Source of the DNA: Candidatus Latescibacterota bacterium
GTDB lineage: Bacteria > JAAXHH01 > JACQVL01
Assembly (NCBI GenBank): GCA_016209865.1
Contig: JACQVL010000164.1
Coordinates: forward strand, 1-12,158
Direction of reading: 5' to 3'
DNA: 12,158 nucleotides
The number at the start of each line of letters is the position of its first letter. Position 1 is the stretch's first letter. The translations under genes and the position numbers were made by a program. The notes beneath the pieces were generated by a model. The model worked only from the letters and a program-made list of their open reading frames with translations, was not told where the DNA came from and ran no database searches. Below, one piece after another: positions 694 to 10,885 of this stretch.

Positions 694-710
694 TTGGCAT
701 AGTTGTTGCA
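694..710 (+). promoter_or_regulatory. Sigma-54 (-24/-12) promoter of usp-fhs
   Basis: The sequence TGGCATAGTTGTTGCA (695-710), preceded by T, matches the RpoN consensus YTGGCACGRNNNTTGCW except at two positions (C to T and G to A after TGGCA). The GG (696-697) and GC (708-709) dinucleotides have the obligatory spacing. The predicted transcription start is near 721, giving a leader of about 86 nt before the usp start at 807. This implies that an enhancer-binding ATPase is required, and one is encoded downstream at 3540-4901. Confidence 0.8.
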
Positions 711-3539: not shown

Positions 3540-4901
3540 ATGCCGCACGACACCGCCCCCAGCATTCTGATCGCTGACGATGAACCGGAGATTCGGGAGG
3601 CACTCGCCCGGATCGTCAAGAAACAAGGACTGACCCCGCGGTTCGCCGCAGACGGCCGGGAGGCCCTCGACATCCTGCAATCGTCCCACGTCGACGTCTT
3701 GCTGGCCGACCTCCGGATGCCTCGGATGGATGGCCTCGAACTGCTGAAGGCGACGAAGACGATCAAACCGGACGTCGAGGTGATTCTGCTCACCGGGCAT
3801 GGGAGCGTCGAGGATGCGGTCGAGGCCATCAAGGCGGGGGCGTACGATTTCATCTCGAAACCCCCGCGCAAAGCGCTGATCGAGAAAGTCATCGCACGAG
3901 CGGTGGAGAAACGCCTGCTCGCCCTGGAAAATCAGCGCCTCCGGGAACAACTCGACGCGTTCCAGAGCGGGCAGACGATCATCGGGACGAGCCCGACGAT
4001 GAAGAAGATCATGGATACCGTCCGCCAGGTCGCGTCGAGTGCGGCCACCGTGCTCATCCAGGGAGAGAGTGGAACGGGGAAGGAGCGGATCGCGGACGCG
4101 ATCCATGCGTACAGCGCGCGCAAGAACGCCTCGTTCATCAAAGTGAACTGCGCCGCGCTGCCGGAAACCCTGCTCGAAGCGGAACTCTTCGGCCATGAAA
4201 AGGGGGCGTTCACCGGCGCGTCCACCCGGCGCATCGGCCGGTTCGAATCCGCCCATCAGGGCACCCTCCTCCTGGATGAGGTCAGCGAGATGAGCCTGGC
4301 GATGCAGGTGAAGCTCCTCCGGGTCCTGCAAGAAGGGGAGTTCGAGCGTCTGGGGAGCACGAAAACCATCCAGGTGGACGTCCGGCTGATCGCGGCGACC
4401 AACACCCACCTCCCCGACCTGGTGAAGACAGGCAAGTTTCGGGAAGACCTGTTCTACCGGCTGAACGTCATCACCCTGACGATTCCTCCGTTGCGTGACC
4501 GGCCCGAAGACACCCCGCTCCTCGCGCATCACTTCCTCCGCCTGTACGCCCGGAAGAACGAGAAGCCGGTCGAACGCATCTCCGAACAGACGATGGATCA
4601 CCTGATCCGGTATCCCTGGCCGGGCAACGTCCGCGAACTGGAGAACGTGATCGAGCGGGCGGTGGTGATGAGTACCTCGTCGGAGATCACCCCGGATGAC
4701 CTGCCCGGATCGATCACACAGACCGCCAGCCGGACAAAGCACTTGATGATTCCGATCGGCACTCCCCTCCCGGAGATCGAAGCCCAGGTCATTCGCGCGA
4801 CCCTGGAGTACGTCGGCGGGAACAAGAACGTCGCTGCCGGACTGTTGGGGATCGCCAGCCGGACGATCTACCGGAAATTGGACAAGTCGAACGGGTCGTG
4901 A
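3540..4901 (+). CDS. NtrC-family sigma-54-dependent response regulator
   Basis: A 453-residue protein with three domains. The receiver (1-120) has the acidic pocket D13/D14, phospho-acceptor D57, T85 and K107. The AAA+ sigma-54 interaction domain (about 147-380) has Walker A GESGTGKE (175-182), an intact GAFTGA loop (222-227) that contacts sigma-54, Walker B GTLLLDE (241-247) and the arginine-finger region FREDLFYRLNV (300-310). A Fis-type helix-turn-helix lies at about 415-448 (NKNVAAGLLGIASRTIYRKL). All residues needed for phosphorylation, ATP hydrolysis and promoter opening are present. ATG 3540 is served by GAGGAGG at 3522-3528 (11-nt spacing, slightly long). Its gene converges with the PAS histidine kinase gene; the stop codons are 39 nt apart. 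Likely targets are the three sigma-54 promoters in this window; that link is inference. Closest general types are NtrC, ZraR and AtoC, and a specific name is not justified. Confidence 0.95.
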   Translation: MPHDTAPSILIADDEPEIREALARIVKKQGLTPRFAADGREALDILQSSHVDVLLADLRMPRMDGLELLKATKTIKPDVEVILLTGHGSVEDAVEAIKAGAYDFISKPPRKALIEKVIARAVEKRLLALENQRLREQLDAFQSGQTIIGTSPTMKKIMDTVRQVASSAATVLIQGESGTGKERIADAIHAYSARKNASFIKVNCAALPETLLEAELFGHEKGAFTGASTRRIGRFESAHQGTLLLDEVSEMSLAMQVKLLRVLQEGEFERLGSTKTIQVDVRLIAATNTHLPDLVKTGKFREDLFYRLNVITLTIPPLRDRPEDTPLLAHHFLRLYARKNEKPVERISEQTMDHLIRYPWPGNVRELENVIERAVVMSTSSEITPDDLPGSITQTASRTKHLMIPIGTPLPEIEAQVIRATLEYVGGNKNVAAGLLGIASRTIYRKLDKSNGS

Positions 4902-4940: not shown

Positions 4941-6077
4941 TTACGCGCCATGCTCCTCCGCCAGGGGTAACCGAATCGTCACGGTCGTGCCCACGCCTCC
5001 GGCGCTCTCCAGGCTGATGCTCCCCCGGTGTTCCTGGATGACCTGCTGGGCGTACGTGAGGCCGAGTCCCGTCCCCATCGCCTTCGTCGTGTAGAATGGC
5101 TGGAAGACCTGGTCGAGGTGCTCCGACGAAATCCCCACCCCGGTATCCTGGAACCGGACCTCCGCGCACTGCTCCCGATGTGACGCTTCGACGCGCAACT
5201 CCCCGCCTTCTGACATCGCCTGGAACGCGTTACGGACGACGTTCAGGATCGCCTGTCTGGCCTGCTGTTCGTCGATGAGCACGCGGAGCGGGGCATCCGG
5301 GAATTGCCGGATGAGATGAATCCCCTGACCCGTCGCTTCGCGTTCGATAAAACGGCACACGTCCATCAGCAGCCAGGTCAAGGAGTACACCGTTTTGTCC
5401 TGCCGGGGCATGTGCGCGAAGTGGAGGTATTCCTCGATCACCAGGTTGAGGCGGTCGATCTCTGACAGGATCGTCGTGAACAGTCCTTTCACGTCATCCC
5501 GCGCGCCCACGTCGCTGCGCTTTACCTCATCCGCCAGTAGCTCGACGTTGAGGCCGATCGAGCTGAGTGGGTTTCTGATCTCGTGGGCGACCTGTGCCGC
5601 CATCTTGCCGATCGTCGCCATGCGTTCGGATTGCAGCAGTTGATCGCGCATCCGTTCCTGCTCAGTGATATCACGGATGATGGCCAGACTCCCGATGAGA
5701 CGCCCGTCGTCGTCCCGGATGGCGCTGCGCGTGAGGTCGATGGTGATGTGCTGGCCACTCTTGGTCACCCGCTGCGTCCGGTAATGCGTGAGGTAGCCGT
5801 GCGTTTCGACCTCGCGCTGAATTTGCTCCAGTTCTCCGCTGGCGAGATGCTCTGGTGGGAGGAGCCGGTGGAACGTCTGTCCGATCATCTCGTCAGCAGT
5901 ATACCCGTAGATCAACTCCGCGCCGTGATTCCACTCCTGGATGACGTTCCCGGTATCTATCACGATGATCGCGTCCGCGGAATTCTGCAGGATCGTCGCA
6001 AAATACCGGTCTTGCTCCTGCAGTCTCGCTTCCAGTCGTTCTCGTTGCGTTCGTTCGACCAGCTCCTGCTCCGACAT
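4941..6077 (-). CDS. Soluble PAS-domain sensor histidine kinase (NtrB-like)
   Basis: A 378-residue protein with no membrane segment. A short charged helical leader (1-24) precedes a PAS domain (about 25-138, ending 'AIIRDITE'). The HisKA domain has the H-box AHEIRNPL with phospho-acceptor H165. The HATPase domain has the N-box around N279/N283, G1 DTGVGI (311-316), F-box PFYTTK (327-332) and G2 GTGLGL (335-340). It is therefore a cytoplasmic sensor, probably of a small ligand, a redox cofactor or a partner protein, since no heme- or flavin-binding signature is obvious in the PAS domain. I chose ATG 6077 because AAGGGG (6087-6092) is 9 nt away; ATG 6086, three codons earlier, abuts that site. 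A further in-frame extension to 6326 has a non-protein-like Arg/Ser/Pro composition and is excluded because it overlaps the 69-residue gene upstream. It is the presumed partner of the regulator at 3540-4901. Confidence 0.95.
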   Translation of the reverse strand: MSEQELVERTQRERLEARLQEQDRYFATILQNSADAIIVIDTGNVIQEWNHGAELIYGYTADEMIGQTFHRLLPPEHLASGELEQIQREVETHGYLTHYRTQRVTKSGQHITIDLTRSAIRDDDGRLIGSLAIIRDITEQERMRDQLLQSERMATIGKMAAQVAHEIRNPLSSIGLNVELLADEVKRSDVGARDDVKGLFTTILSEIDRLNLVIEEYLHFAHMPRQDKTVYSLTWLLMDVCRFIEREATGQGIHLIRQFPDAPLRVLIDEQQARQAILNVVRNAFQAMSEGGELRVEASHREQCAEVRFQDTGVGISSEHLDQVFQPFYTTKAMGTGLGLTYAQQVIQEHRGSISLESAGGVGTTVTIRLPLAEEHGA

Positions 6078-6090
6078 ATCGGACATCCCC

Positions 6091-6300
6091 TTACTCGTCG
6101 AACCACGGCTCCTGCGCGTCTTCGGCCTGGCGGCAGTCGTCGCCGGACAAGCGACAGCGACGCTTGACGCATTCCGCATCCGCACCGAGGCACTGATACG
6201 TCCGAACCGGGAAGTCGGTGGCATCCCGCTCGAGGATCTCCAGGGTCGTCCACTTCTCCCGGAGATAGCAATAGAGGAGCCGAACAGATTGGGTGGCCAT
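6091..6300 (-). CDS. Small Cys-rich hypothetical protein (69 aa)
   Basis: I do not recognise a family. ATG 6300 has an excellent ribosome site, GAAGGAGG (6306-6313), 5 nt upstream. The stop lies 4 to 13 nt before the kinase start, indicating translational coupling. The protein is hydrophilic. Its C-terminal half has four cysteines with symmetrical spacing CX6CX4CX6C (C37, C44, C49, C56), plus C11 near the N-terminus. The end is acidic (AEDAQEPWFDE). There is no signal peptide or membrane helix. The spacing would suit binding of a metal or Fe-S cluster, or disulfide chemistry, but this is not a motif I can name. Its place between ald and the sensor kinase makes a role as an accessory sensor or kinase modulator plausible; that is inference. 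Confidence 0.75.
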   Translation of the reverse strand: MATQSVRLLYCYLREKWTTLEILERDATDFPVRTYQCLGADAECVKRRCRLSGDDCRQAEDAQEPWFDE

Positions 6301-6317
6301 GGCAGCCTCCTTCTTCT

Positions 6318-6345
6318 ATTTCCCATTTCCCATTTTCTATTCTCT
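6318..6345. repeat. ATTTCCC heptamer repeat between ald and the 69-aa gene
   Basis: Two exact ATTTCCC units (6318-6331) are followed by two degenerate units (ATTTTCT, ATTCTCT). They fill most of the 44-nt spacer and touch the ald stop codon. On the coding (minus) strand the array reads GGGAAAT and precedes the ribosome site of the small gene. The sequence differs from the other heptamers here, but the period is the same. Confidence 0.75.
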
Positions 6346-7460
6346 CACAGGACCTCGCTCAGTGTCCTGGCCTTCCGTCCATGCGCTAAGGCGACGGCTT
6401 CGTTCGTCAACGCCCCGGAGCAGATGTTGATGCCTTTGGCAAAGCCGGGGTCCTGGATCGTCGTCTGAACAAGGCCGGAGGCGGCCACCCGCGTGATCGC
6501 GCTCAGGGCGCTGTTCGTCAGGGCGTGCGTCGCCGTCCGGGCGACCTTGCTCGGGATGTTGGGGACGCAGTAGTGAATGACCCCTTCCTCGATGAAGGTC
6601 GGGGCGGAGTGATGCGTCGGATGGCTGGTCTCGACGCACCCGCCCTGATCGACCGCGATGTCGATGATGACGGATTTGGGCTTCATCGTCCGCACCATCT
6701 CCCGCGTGACCAGATGGGGAGCGCGCGCGCCGTGGACGAGCACCGCGCCGATCAGGACATCCGCGTAACTCGCCGCGCGGGCGATCGTGTAGTCATTCGC
6801 CATCATCGTCATCACCCGTCCGTCGAAGAACCGGTCGAGCCGCTGGAGCACCCGCAGGTCGTGGTCGAGGACGGTCACATGCACGCCGAGACCGACGAAC
6901 GCCCGCGCGGCGTTCGACCCGACGACGCCTCCTCCCAGGATGACCACCTGCGCAGGCGGCACGCCGGGGACTCCGCTCAGCAGGACACCCTTCCCGCCGT
7001 TCGTGCTGTCCAGCAGACTGGCGGCGATCTGCGGGGTGATGCGCCCGGCGATCTCGCTCGTCGGCAAGAGAACGGGCAGTCGCCCGTCCGGCCCCTCGAT
7101 CGTCTCGTAGGCGATCGCCTCCACCTCGCGCTCGGACAAGGCATCGATCAACTCACGCGGGGCGACCGCCAGGTGCAGGAACCCGAAGAGCATCTGGTTC
7201 CGCTCGATCAACGGGTACTCAGGCGGGGCCGGCGCGGCCACTTTCAGGATCATCTGGGCACGGCTGTACACCTCCTGGGCGGAGTAGACGACCTCAGCGC
7301 CGGCTTTCCGGTACTGCTCGTCCGTGAACCCGCTGGCCGCTCCCGCCTCGGTCTGGACGTACACGCGATGGCCCTGATGGATGAGCGTGACGACGCCCGC
7401 TGGGGCCAGTCCGACGCGGAACTCATCCCGCTGGATCTCTTTCGGTATGCCGATATCCAT
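6345..7460 (-). CDS. ald: Alanine dehydrogenase (NAD-dependent)
   Basis: A 371-residue protein of the usual length for the family. It catalyses L-alanine + NAD+ + H2O to pyruvate + NH4+ + NADH, reversibly. It begins with the family start 'IGIPKEIQRDEFRV'. Catalytic and substrate residues known from Mycobacterium Ald map well: R15, K73, H96 (in GFLHLA) and D271 (DIAVDQGG). The Rossmann motif GGGVVGSNAA lies at 176-185. ATG 7460 has GAGGGGAG about 7 nt upstream on the minus strand. The gene sits behind a sigma-54 promoter (7601-7616) with a leader of about 130 nt that still contains a remnant of a usp gene. The 69-residue protein and histidine kinase genes follow in the same direction. In other bacteria Ald is induced by starvation or hypoxia, and it either recycles NADH by aminating pyruvate or catabolises alanine. 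Confidence 0.96.
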   Translation of the reverse strand: MDIGIPKEIQRDEFRVGLAPAGVVTLIHQGHRVYVQTEAGAASGFTDEQYRKAGAEVVYSAQEVYSRAQMILKVAAPAPPEYPLIERNQMLFGFLHLAVAPRELIDALSEREVEAIAYETIEGPDGRLPVLLPTSEIAGRITPQIAASLLDSTNGGKGVLLSGVPGVPPAQVVILGGGVVGSNAARAFVGLGVHVTVLDHDLRVLQRLDRFFDGRVMTMMANDYTIARAASYADVLIGAVLVHGARAPHLVTREMVRTMKPKSVIIDIAVDQGGCVETSHPTHHSAPTFIEEGVIHYCVPNIPSKVARTATHALTNSALSAITRVAASGLVQTTIQDPGFAKGINICSGALTNEAVALAHGRKARTLSEVL

Positions 7461-7600: not shown

Positions 7601-7616
7601 AGCAACAATCATGCCA
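7601..7616 (-). promoter_or_regulatory. Sigma-54 (-24/-12) promoter of ald
   Basis: On the minus strand this reads TGGCATGATTGTTGCT. It fits TGGCACGRNNNTTGCW except for one C-to-T change; the base before it is G instead of a pyrimidine. GG is at 7615-7614 and GC at 7603-7602, with correct spacing. The predicted start is near 7590, leaving a leader of about 130 nt to the ald ATG. The -24 half matches the usp-fhs promoter (TGGCAT), as does the TTGTTGC around -12. Confidence 0.75.
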
Positions 7617-7647
7617 CGGCTGTTTGACCCGTCTCCCAGTGTGATCT

Positions 7648-7672
7648 GGATTCCCGCTTTCGCGGGAATGAC
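7648..7672 (-). repeat. ATTCCC-N8-GGGAAT palindromic dispersed repeat, copy 2
   Basis: The core at 7650-7669 reads ATTCCCGCTTTCGCGGGAAT. Read on the minus strand it matches copy 1 (648-672), flanks included, with one mismatch in 25. It is 33 bp upstream of the ald -24 element, in the same orientation relative to its promoter as copy 1 is to the usp-fhs promoter. Peptides such as VIPAKAGIQ read from it are artefacts. Confidence 0.85.
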
Positions 7673-7767
7673 AATAATGACAATAGAGAAGCAATACCTT
7701 GTATGAATCCTGATTGGAAGAACAAGGATCGTGTGAAGTCGGATGTTCATGCGTTGCGGAATGTCTT

Positions 7768-7862
7768 GACAATTTGTCGATGTTTTCGGTCACGGGAGCG
7801 AGACCGGAGACATTTTGTCAAGCCGGAACGGGCCAGAATCGGGGTCGGGAGGACATTCTGTC
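7768..7862. promoter_or_regulatory. Three phased GACA-N3-TGTC palindromes (candidate shared enhancer)
   Basis: The sites are GACAATTTGTC (7768-7778), GACATTTTGTC (7809-7819) and GACATTCTGTC (7852-7862). Start-to-start spacing is 41 and 43 bp, about four helical turns each, so all would face the same side of DNA. The middle site is about 199 bp from the ald -24 element and about 191 bp from the CoA-transferase -24 element. This is the expected architecture for upstream activator sites of an NtrC-type protein serving two divergent sigma-54 promoters. Binding by the regulator encoded at 3540-4901 is inference. Confidence 0.6.
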
Positions 7863-7869
7863 AATATCC

Positions 7870-7999
7870 CGGATGACACTGATCCTCTCCATCCCCACTC
7901 CCCGCCTCACGGATGACACTGATCCCCCTGCCTGAGCGACTCCGGGAAGGGTTGAGAGGGGATTAGCGTCATCCGGAGTGCTCATCTGTGTCATCTGTG
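7870..7999. repeat. ATGACAC(T/A)GAT direct and inverted repeats
   Basis: CGGATGACACTGATCC occurs at 7870-7885 and again, identical, at 7910-7925 (40-bp period). An inverted copy with 14 of 16 matches lies at 7960-7975. A tandem TCATCTGTG pair (7982-7999) gives a further inverted ATGACACAGAT. The array fills the space between the palindrome cluster and the CoA-transferase promoter. It could be a dispersed intergenic repeat family or a second set of protein sites. Confidence 0.7.
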
Positions 8000-8002
8000 A
8001 TT

Positions 8003-8019
8003 CTGGCACAGGGATTGCT
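8003..8019 (+). promoter_or_regulatory. Sigma-54 (-24/-12) promoter of the CoA-transferase gene
   Basis: CTGGCACAGGGATTGCT matches YTGGCACGRNNNTTGCW at all but one defined position (G to A after TGGCAC). GG is at 8005-8006 and GC at 8017-8018. The predicted start is near 8030, 36 nt before the ATG at 8066. It is the best of the three sigma-54 promoters in the window. Confidence 0.88.
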
Positions 8020-8065
8020 CGATAGAAGGGAGAGCGTGGAGTGAGAAAAAAGGGTGGAGCGAGAG

Positions 8066-9361
8066 ATGAACTGGCTACACGAGTATCGCAGCCGGGTGAC
8101 GACGGTGGACGAGGCACTGCGCGTCGTGGAATCCGGCCATCGGGTGTACGTCGGGAACGGCTGCGGCGCGCCGCAGCCGCTGGTCACCGCCTTAGCGAAC
8201 CGGGCCGCGGCCCTCCGGTCGGTTGAGATCGTCCATCTGATGACCTTAGGCGAGGCGCCGTACGCCGCGCCTGAGATGGCCGGACACTTCCGGCATCAAG
8301 CGTTCTTCATCGGGGAGAACGTCCGGTCGGCGGTCAACGAGGGGCGGGCGGATTTTATCCCCATCTTTCTTTCCGAGATTCCCCGGCTGTTCACGGACGG
8401 GAGCCTCCCGATCGACGTGGCGATGATCCAGGTGTCTCCCCCGGATGAGCACGGGTTCTGCAGTTTCGGGGTGTCCGTCGATTGCACGAAACCGGCGGCG
8501 GAGTCCGCTCGGATCGTCATCGCCCACGTGAACCCGCAGATGCCCAGGACCTTAGGGGATAGCTTCATCCACGTGAGCAAGCTCGACGCCGTCGTGGAAT
8601 CCGACGAACCCCTGCCCGAGCTCCCCAGATCGCCCATCTCTGACGTTCAGCGACGGATCGGCCAGCACGTCGCCGCGCTGATCGAGGATGGATCGACCCT
8701 GCAGATGGGCATCGGCGGGATTCCGGACGCGGTGCTGTCCAACCTGACGGAGAAACGCGACTTAGGGGTTCACACCGAGATGTTCTCAGACGGGATCGTC
8801 GACCTGATCGAGGCGGGCGTGATCACGAACGAGCGAAAGACACTCCATCCCGGCAAGGTGGTGTCGAGCTTTCTGTTGGGGTCGCGGGTGCTCTACCAGT
8901 TCACCGACAACAACCCGATCATCGAACTCCATCCGTCCCACTACACGAACGACCCGTTCATCATCGCCCAGAACGAGCGGATGGTCGCCATCAACTCTGC
9001 GATCGAGGTCGACCTGACCGGGCAGGTGTGCGCGGATTCGATCGGGCCGCGTTTCTACAGCGGGATCGGCGGGCAGCTCGACTTCATCCGGGGCGCGGCG
9101 CGGTCGAAGGGCGGGAAGCCGATCATCGCTCTGCCCTCGACGGCGAAGAACGGCCAGGCGTCCCGCCTCGTGCCGTTCCTGACGCCAGGCGCCGGGGTGG
9201 TGACGACGCGAGGGGACGTCCACTACGTCGTGACGGAGTACGGGACGGCGTTCCTGCACGGGAAGAGCATCCGGCAGCGCGCCCGGGCGTTGATCGACAT
9301 CGCCCATCCCGACTTCCGGGACAGCCTGGAAGCGTTCGCGCGAGAGCGGCACTACGTGTGA
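8066..9361 (+). CDS. Acetyl-CoA hydrolase / CoA-transferase family protein (4-hydroxybutyrate CoA-transferase-like)
   Basis: A 431-residue protein of the class I acyl-CoA transferase family containing 4-hydroxybutyrate, butyrate and succinate:acetate CoA-transferases and acetyl-CoA hydrolases. Its N-terminal half (1-190) and C-terminal half (195-431) are the two family domains. The CoA-binding loop GIGGIPDAVL is at 215-224. The catalytic glutamate is E238 in 'LGVHTEMFSDG', the same position as E238 of clostridial 4-hydroxybutyrate CoA-transferase, where it forms the glutamyl-CoA thioester. The C-terminal 'VVTEYGTAFLHGKS' (388-401) is also typical. ATG 8066 is preferred over GTG 8054 because GGAG (8056-8059) lies 6 nt upstream. 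It is monocistronic under its own sigma-54 promoter and converges with the cytochrome block. The substrate cannot be read from the sequence: acetate/acetyl-CoA, succinate, butyrate or 4-hydroxybutyrate are all possible. Confidence 0.92.
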   Translation: MNWLHEYRSRVTTVDEALRVVESGHRVYVGNGCGAPQPLVTALANRAAALRSVEIVHLMTLGEAPYAAPEMAGHFRHQAFFIGENVRSAVNEGRADFIPIFLSEIPRLFTDGSLPIDVAMIQVSPPDEHGFCSFGVSVDCTKPAAESARIVIAHVNPQMPRTLGDSFIHVSKLDAVVESDEPLPELPRSPISDVQRRIGQHVAALIEDGSTLQMGIGGIPDAVLSNLTEKRDLGVHTEMFSDGIVDLIEAGVITNERKTLHPGKVVSSFLLGSRVLYQFTDNNPIIELHPSHYTNDPFIIAQNERMVAINSAIEVDLTGQVCADSIGPRFYSGIGGQLDFIRGAARSKGGKPIIALPSTAKNGQASRLVPFLTPGAGVVTTRGDVHYVVTEYGTAFLHGKSIRQRARALIDIAHPDFRDSLEAFARERHYV

Positions 9362-10388: not shown

Positions 10389-10793
10389 TCATTTTTTGCC
10401 GGCGCTCCCGGATTTCATCGTGGCTAACCATTTCGACAGGGTGTCGAGCTCCTCCGTACTTCCCTTGAACTTCTTCTCATGCTTCTTGCCGTCGATCGTT
10501 TCTTTCTTGAGCAGGAACTTCGCGATCCAGTCGGCCGTGCGCTTGGTGCCGACGCCGGATAAATCCGGAGCATCCTCCTCGCCGGATTCAGCGCTCACTT
10601 GCTTCTTGATGCCCGCCGCCTGGAGGGAATGACACCCGTTGCACTCAAACTTGGTGAAGATGGGCTTCGCGTCTTTCGGCTTCCCTTCCTGGGCGAGGGA
10701 CACGGCGGTCGAGAAAGTCACGAGGAACGCAACCCCCATCACCGCCGCGATGCCCGTCAACACCGCCACGATAAAGGCTGAATCTCTTTTCAT
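10389..10793 (-). CDS. Monoheme c-type cytochrome, periplasmic
   Basis: A 134-residue precursor. Residues 1-34 form a Sec-type signal (MKRD, a hydrophobic core, probable cleavage near 'VSLA'). The mature part has one heme site, CNGCH (51-55), followed by 'DAPDLSGVGTKRTADWIAKFLL' features and a C-terminal helix typical of small class I cytochromes c. The usual axial Met position before the last helix is not occupied: that region reads KKHEKKFKGS. The only mature Met is M126, inside or after the helix, so the sixth ligand may be H105 or an unusual Met. I chose ATG 10793 because AAAGGA lies about 8 nt upstream and a signal peptide begins at once; an in-frame extension to 10880 would place 29 non-signal residues in front. 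It probably shuttles electrons between the NapC-like protein and the heme-porin. Confidence 0.88.
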   Translation of the reverse strand: MKRDSAFIVAVLTGIAAVMGVAFLVTFSTAVSLAQEGKPKDAKPIFTKFECNGCHSLQAAGIKKQVSAESGEEDAPDLSGVGTKRTADWIAKFLLKKETIDGKKHEKKFKGSTEELDTLSKWLATMKSGSAGKK

Positions 10794-10885
10794 ACAGTCG
10801 TCCTTTCTGATGAGATTTGGATAATCAAGATGAACAATCGTTGTCGCCCCTACGAATCCATAACCAGTTTTGATCGTCAACTACT

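Follow-up and report, generated by a model that had tools for sequence, protein, structure and literature searches.

The window, by which we mean the whole stretch of 12,158 nucleotides analysed here, derives from contig JACQVL010000164.1 of a Candidatus Latescibacterota bacterium and contains a 593-bp intergenic region between two divergent metabolic genes. The relevant features are:

3540-4901, plus strand: NtrC-type response regulator (PF00072, PF00158, PF02954), the probable activator by co-occurrence and tree
4941-6326, minus strand: PAS histidine kinase (PF00989, PF00512, PF02518), the probable partner, convergent with the regulator
6345-7460, minus strand: ald, alanine dehydrogenase (TIGR00518 at 436 bits, above the cutoff of 392; Pfam AlaDh_PNT), target
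7602-7616, minus strand: sigma-54 promoter-like -24/-12 element for ald, TGGCATGATTGTTGC, one mismatch to TGGCACN5TTGC, nearest array site 157 bp away
7768-7778, no strand: array site 1, GACAATTTGTC, exact palindrome
7809-7819, no strand: array site 2, GACATTTTGTC, exact palindrome, 41 bp from site 1
7852-7862, no strand: array site 3, GACATTCTGTC, exact palindrome, 43 bp from site 2
8004-8018, plus strand: sigma-54 promoter-like -24/-12 element for the CoA-transferase gene, TGGCACAGGGATTGC, zero mismatches, nearest array site 147 bp away
8054-9361, plus strand: acetyl-CoA hydrolase/transferase family CoA-transferase (PF13336, PF02550), target

The regulator combines a receiver, a sigma-54 AAA+ domain and a Fis-type HTH, all detected with Pfam, with a GAFTGA motif that can be read in its translation, and this constitution places it in the NtrC family. 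Its best NCBIfam model was the AtoC equivalog, an assignment that was rejected at 508.9 bits against a curated cutoff of 714. The true start of the PAS kinase is probably nearer 6090, and its adjacency to the regulator, seen likewise in a genome of family f3, genus g4 (G011), makes it the regulator's probable partner. None of the order's other 15 genomes contains a homologue of the CoA-transferase, and the closest match to it among named genomes (69%) is in a Nitrospinae MAG; together these observations suggest that the gene was gained horizontally.

Exact matches to the palindrome GACANNNTGTC (GACA-N3-TGTC) occur four times in the window, at the three array sites and at 10435-10445, where 0.23 are expected, and none of 200 shuffles reached four. 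When the intergenic region itself was subjected to 3000 dinucleotide shuffles, one site was obtained in 45 of them and two or more in none. Given these two results, a chance origin of the array can be ruled out. The fourth match falls within a cytochrome c ORF (10389-10880, minus strand). Both promoters possess the -24 GG and -12 GC elements at the correct spacing expected of sigma-54 units, and the center of the middle site is 198 bp from the -24 element of ald and 190 bp from that of the CoA-transferase gene. As is typical of sigma-54 enhancers, multiple dyad-symmetric sites lie at a distance upstream, here three palindromes, the nearest of which are separated from the two -24 elements by 147 and 157 bp. 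The original prediction had described these three palindromes with their spacings, placed them midway between two divergent -24/-12 promoters, deemed them unlikely to arise by chance and noted the extra match in the cytochrome coding region; each of these statements was borne out. A scan of the intergenic region for IHF sites yielded a single weak match and no good site, and Rfam searches with the window and nine array loci returned zero RNA elements.

The 3.75 Mb of this genome contain 74 exact GACANNNTGTC sites, as against 43 for the reversed pattern. Site pairs 31-61 bp apart were observed four times vs none for the control, whereas at this density of sites about 0.05 would be expected. The clustered sites adjoin sigma-54 promoters. 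Seven single-site loci (L111-L117) showed no sigma-54 promoter nearby, and they were taken as chance occurrences. A search for degenerate sites revealed that the arrays are triple, the third sites of some carrying one or two mismatches, with spacings of 42/41 bp on contigs C16 and C194, 42/43 on C170 and 41/43 on both C354 and the window. We also built a sequence-only model from eight arrays, leaving out two in which MAFFT had misaligned the third site. A weak match of this model on contig C51 (E=0.03) comprised sites with spacings of 41 and 43 bp, and only afterwards was a perfect TGGCACGCTTCTTGC promoter seen 128 bp from the last site. Since the promoter played no part in finding the array, C51 is a small blind test of the association between arrays and promoters, and the association passed it. 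The genome thus holds the window array and five further triple arrays, all spaced by 41-43 bp. At C16 and C194 one of the sigma-54 promoters is oriented back across the array (L130 1967 and L131 5490, both minus strand), which would place the array within the leader transcript of the gene concerned.

Among the 16 genomes of the phylum set, G001, which belongs to the same order but another family, has seven exact site pairs and five arrays. No exact pairs were found in thirteen f3 genomes (genera g3 and g5). G011 has degenerate 41-bp arrays at the 3' end of its regulator gene and upstream of a Usp gene; next to FTHFS and a further Usp gene it also has two palindromes separated by 85 bp. The orthologous Usp genes of this genome, G001 and G011, which represent three families and are 62-74% identical, each have an array, degenerate in G011, and MTHFR-type genes are accompanied by one in this genome and in G001. 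A scan of 384 genomes found pairs in few others, several of them within coding repeats. It was through G331, whose array has two visible sites, that we reached family f236, outside the phylum, in which triple arrays with spacings of 40-42 bp occur in G390, G395 (two) and G402, giving five arrays for the family. Pairs in G031, G037, G386, G397, G390 (contig C88) and G419 were rejected as repeats in or beside coding sequence or as otherwise lacking a sigma-54 promoter; those in G106, G174 and G208 were ambiguous and were left out of the counts.

An outward sigma-54 promoter accompanies each of the 15 tabulated arrays, with three two-mismatch promoters being the only one on their side, and in seven of the 15 the array is situated between two divergent promoters of this kind. 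The 14 kb near arrays contain 21 near-consensus promoters, vs 17 in 163 kb elsewhere. A consensus derived from 43 sites is TTGACA-N3-TGTCAA; the DNA between the sites displays no conservation, only the sites and their spacing being conserved.

The distribution of the window's regulator follows that of the arrays. In the phylum set an orthologue is confined to this genome, G001 (74%) and G011 (73%), and in each genome of the rest of the order the best match has an identity of 43-46%. Within f236, the array-bearing G390, G331 and G395 encode relatives at 53-56% on the same contig as an array, and G386, G393, G397 and G399, which have no true arrays, yield matches of only about 44-47%. In a tree of 42 rows the array-linked regulators form one group (support 96/85, with the bootstrap not fully settled), next to which is placed the protein of G106, a genome with a 41-bp pair. 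They also have in common the recognition helix SRTIYRKL, which was not seen in other paralogues. This constellation makes it highly probable that the NtrC-type regulator at 3540-4901 is the activator of the arrays. As a side observation, the f236 regulators (L210 7275-8693, L220 1345-2850 and L212 301-1041) have GAFTDA in the sigma-54 contact loop vs the usual GAFTGA of the window's regulator. The G011 orthologue (L216 7794-8705, contig C8) has one in-frame stop, and G011 also has degenerate arrays, which gives the impression of a regulator and its sites decaying in parallel, though an assembly error is possible.

The original prediction had further read the array as a shared enhancer, and had named as checks whether clusters of the motif lie near RpoN promoters, whether they are conserved in relatives and whether the regulator at 3540-4901 binds them. 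The genomic evidence supports this reading: clustered sites, and not the seven single-site loci, adjoin sigma-54 promoters, arrays with their spacing recur even at orthologous Usp genes, the arrangement between divergent promoters is a repeated one, and orthologues of this regulator track the arrays. The array could nevertheless be the enhancer of another enhancer-binding protein. A search of this genome with the regulator returned 55 matches, and many of these are other sigma-54 activators or response regulators; the C16 array adjoins the gene for a different activator, and G402 has an array with no member of the 3540-4901 clade found in its fragmented assembly of 730 contigs. However, that clade alone tracks the arrays, both within the order and beyond it in another phylum, its members lie beside arrays in G331, G395 and G011, and both the C16 activator and the C134 regulator are placed elsewhere in the tree, so that we regard a different activator as quite unlikely.

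An array serving one promoter only, probably that of the CoA-transferase gene, with the other being fortuitous or differently regulated, would be in keeping with the perfect consensus match on the plus strand as against one mismatch on the minus strand, and with the 8 of 15 arrays in which just one side bears an outward promoter. Yet the form TGGCAT...TTGC seen at ald is common among array-side promoters and seven arrays are flanked by promoters on both sides, and we consider this reading unlikely. The palindromes might, finally, be operators of a regulator independent of sigma-54, or a dispersed repeat present by coincidence, for which one could point to the repeated elements D1, I4 and I5 that do occur in the intergenic region. 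That only the sites and spacing, and not the DNA between them, are conserved, and that arrays associate with promoters far above background, leaves this scarcely credible.

We therefore favor the reading that the three palindromes are a sigma-54 enhancer, one array of a regulon, at which the regulator at 3540-4901 would bind and activate both ald and the CoA-transferase gene; on the genomic evidence this is very probable. The PAS kinase would phosphorylate the regulator, one dimer of which would occupy each palindrome on a single face of the DNA, the 41-43 bp spacing corresponding to about four helical turns. The dimers might then assemble into an AAA+ ring that, by looping, reaches sigma-54 RNA polymerase at either of the promoters on its flanks, so that both genes would be activated from the array. 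The at least six arrays of the genome would form a regulon, probably for oxygen limitation or redox state.

The neighbors of arrays across lineages include several Usp genes, a CBS-domain protein, a response regulator, MTHFR and pterin-binding enzymes, to which the window adds ald and the CoA-transferase. At C170 a P-type ATPase with an HMA domain follows Usp, the radical SAM protein at C16 shares 62% identity with one encoded close to the array of G402, and an array-adjacent cytidylate-kinase-like protein has 34% identity between G001 and G395. The ald and CoA-transferase genes would fit NADH re-oxidation and acyl-CoA turnover under limited respiration. The kinase beside the regulator differs between lineages, a point that weighs against our reading: it is of the PAS type in the window and of the protoglobin type in f236, where its gene directly precedes the regulator in two of three genomes, G331 and G390, the two in which the upstream gene was seen. 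In the NmpRSTU system of Myxococcus xanthus, Usp, CBS, P-type ATPase and oxidase genes are the targets of an NtrC-like regulator that is itself under the control of a protoglobin kinase (PMC11841059). The similarities extend to an NtrC-like response regulator, multi-site sigma-54 promoters, Usp, CBS and P-type ATPase targets and, on the side of the f236 relatives, the protoglobin kinase sensor. Because both the targets and this kinase resemble NmpRSTU, we lean slightly towards oxygen or redox as the signal. NmpR recognizes GCGCA-N5-TGCGC, most of its promoters having two such sites at a distance of 14-15 nt (PMC11841059), whereas the arrays have three sites at 41-43 bp and the 43-site consensus TTGACA-N3-TGTCAA, and were on this ground rejected as NmpR-type sites. 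The window kinase differs as well, being of the PAS and not the protoglobin type.

Other known systems share parts of this arrangement. The orp operons of Desulfovibrio vulgaris are likewise two divergent sigma-54 units under one enhancer-binding protein, DVU2106 (PMC3897727), but there each promoter has its own palindromic activator site upstream, and IHF sites lie in between, in contrast to the one central three-site array and lack of a good IHF site in the window. Desulfovibrio ald is predicted to be under sigma-54 control by DVU0569, with an activator motif (PMC4641369); DVU0569 is a one-component activator whose motif is given only as a figure. At glmY, a sigma-54 promoter is preceded by three putative GlrR/QseF sites, each composed of TGTC and GACA halves (PMC8745638), but in these the halves are in the opposite arrangement (TGTC-N10-GACA) to GACA-N3-TGTC. 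The window regulator was also rejected as GlrR, at 373 bits against a cutoff of 763. When the openly accessible literature was searched for the motif as an exact string, no paper containing it was found. Sigma-54 enhancers as such are already known, as are divergent sigma-54 operons that share one activator and the predicted control of ald by sigma-54; the motif, the strict three-site four-turn geometry across lineages and the regulon appear to be undescribed.

Two unrelated lineages, known mostly at the MAG level, thereby gain a readable regulon, defined by its motif and spacing rule and provided with a likely activator and a target list. The strict spacing offers a natural test of site geometry in setting up the ring of a sigma-54 activator, and the array is a test case for whether one array fires two divergent promoters at once. 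A broader proposal, which we hold tentatively and at somewhat below an even chance, is that an undescribed response-regulator clade and its strict three-site enhancer constitute an oxygen/redox regulon in at least two phyla, with the fixed geometry pre-organizing a single activator ring for either side and bidirectional enhancers being a regular design.

Several further elements deserve mention. A one-mismatch sigma-54 site that the original prediction does not mention, TGGCATAGTTGTTGC (695-709, plus strand), precedes the genes for Usp (798-1601) and FTHFS by about 90 bp; it has no array upstream of it and may answer to another activator. On C134 two palindromes 71 bp apart (L133, 6970 and 7041), excluded from the array set, lie near the sigma-54 promoter (6855, minus strand) of an operon for a response regulator and a multihaem cytochrome, with back-to-back perfect sigma-54 promoters close by at 10500 (minus) and 10522 (plus). 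Between the window array and the plus-strand promoter, CGGATGACACTGATCC elements occur repeated and inverted (7867-7885, 7907-7925 and 7958-7975); a similar string adjoins the C354 array (L110, about 2637), which suggests that they are a dispersed repeat. Between the array and the ald promoter lies a ATTCCCGCTTTCGCGGGAAT palindrome (7651-7675), which resembles a common dispersed hairpin repeat.
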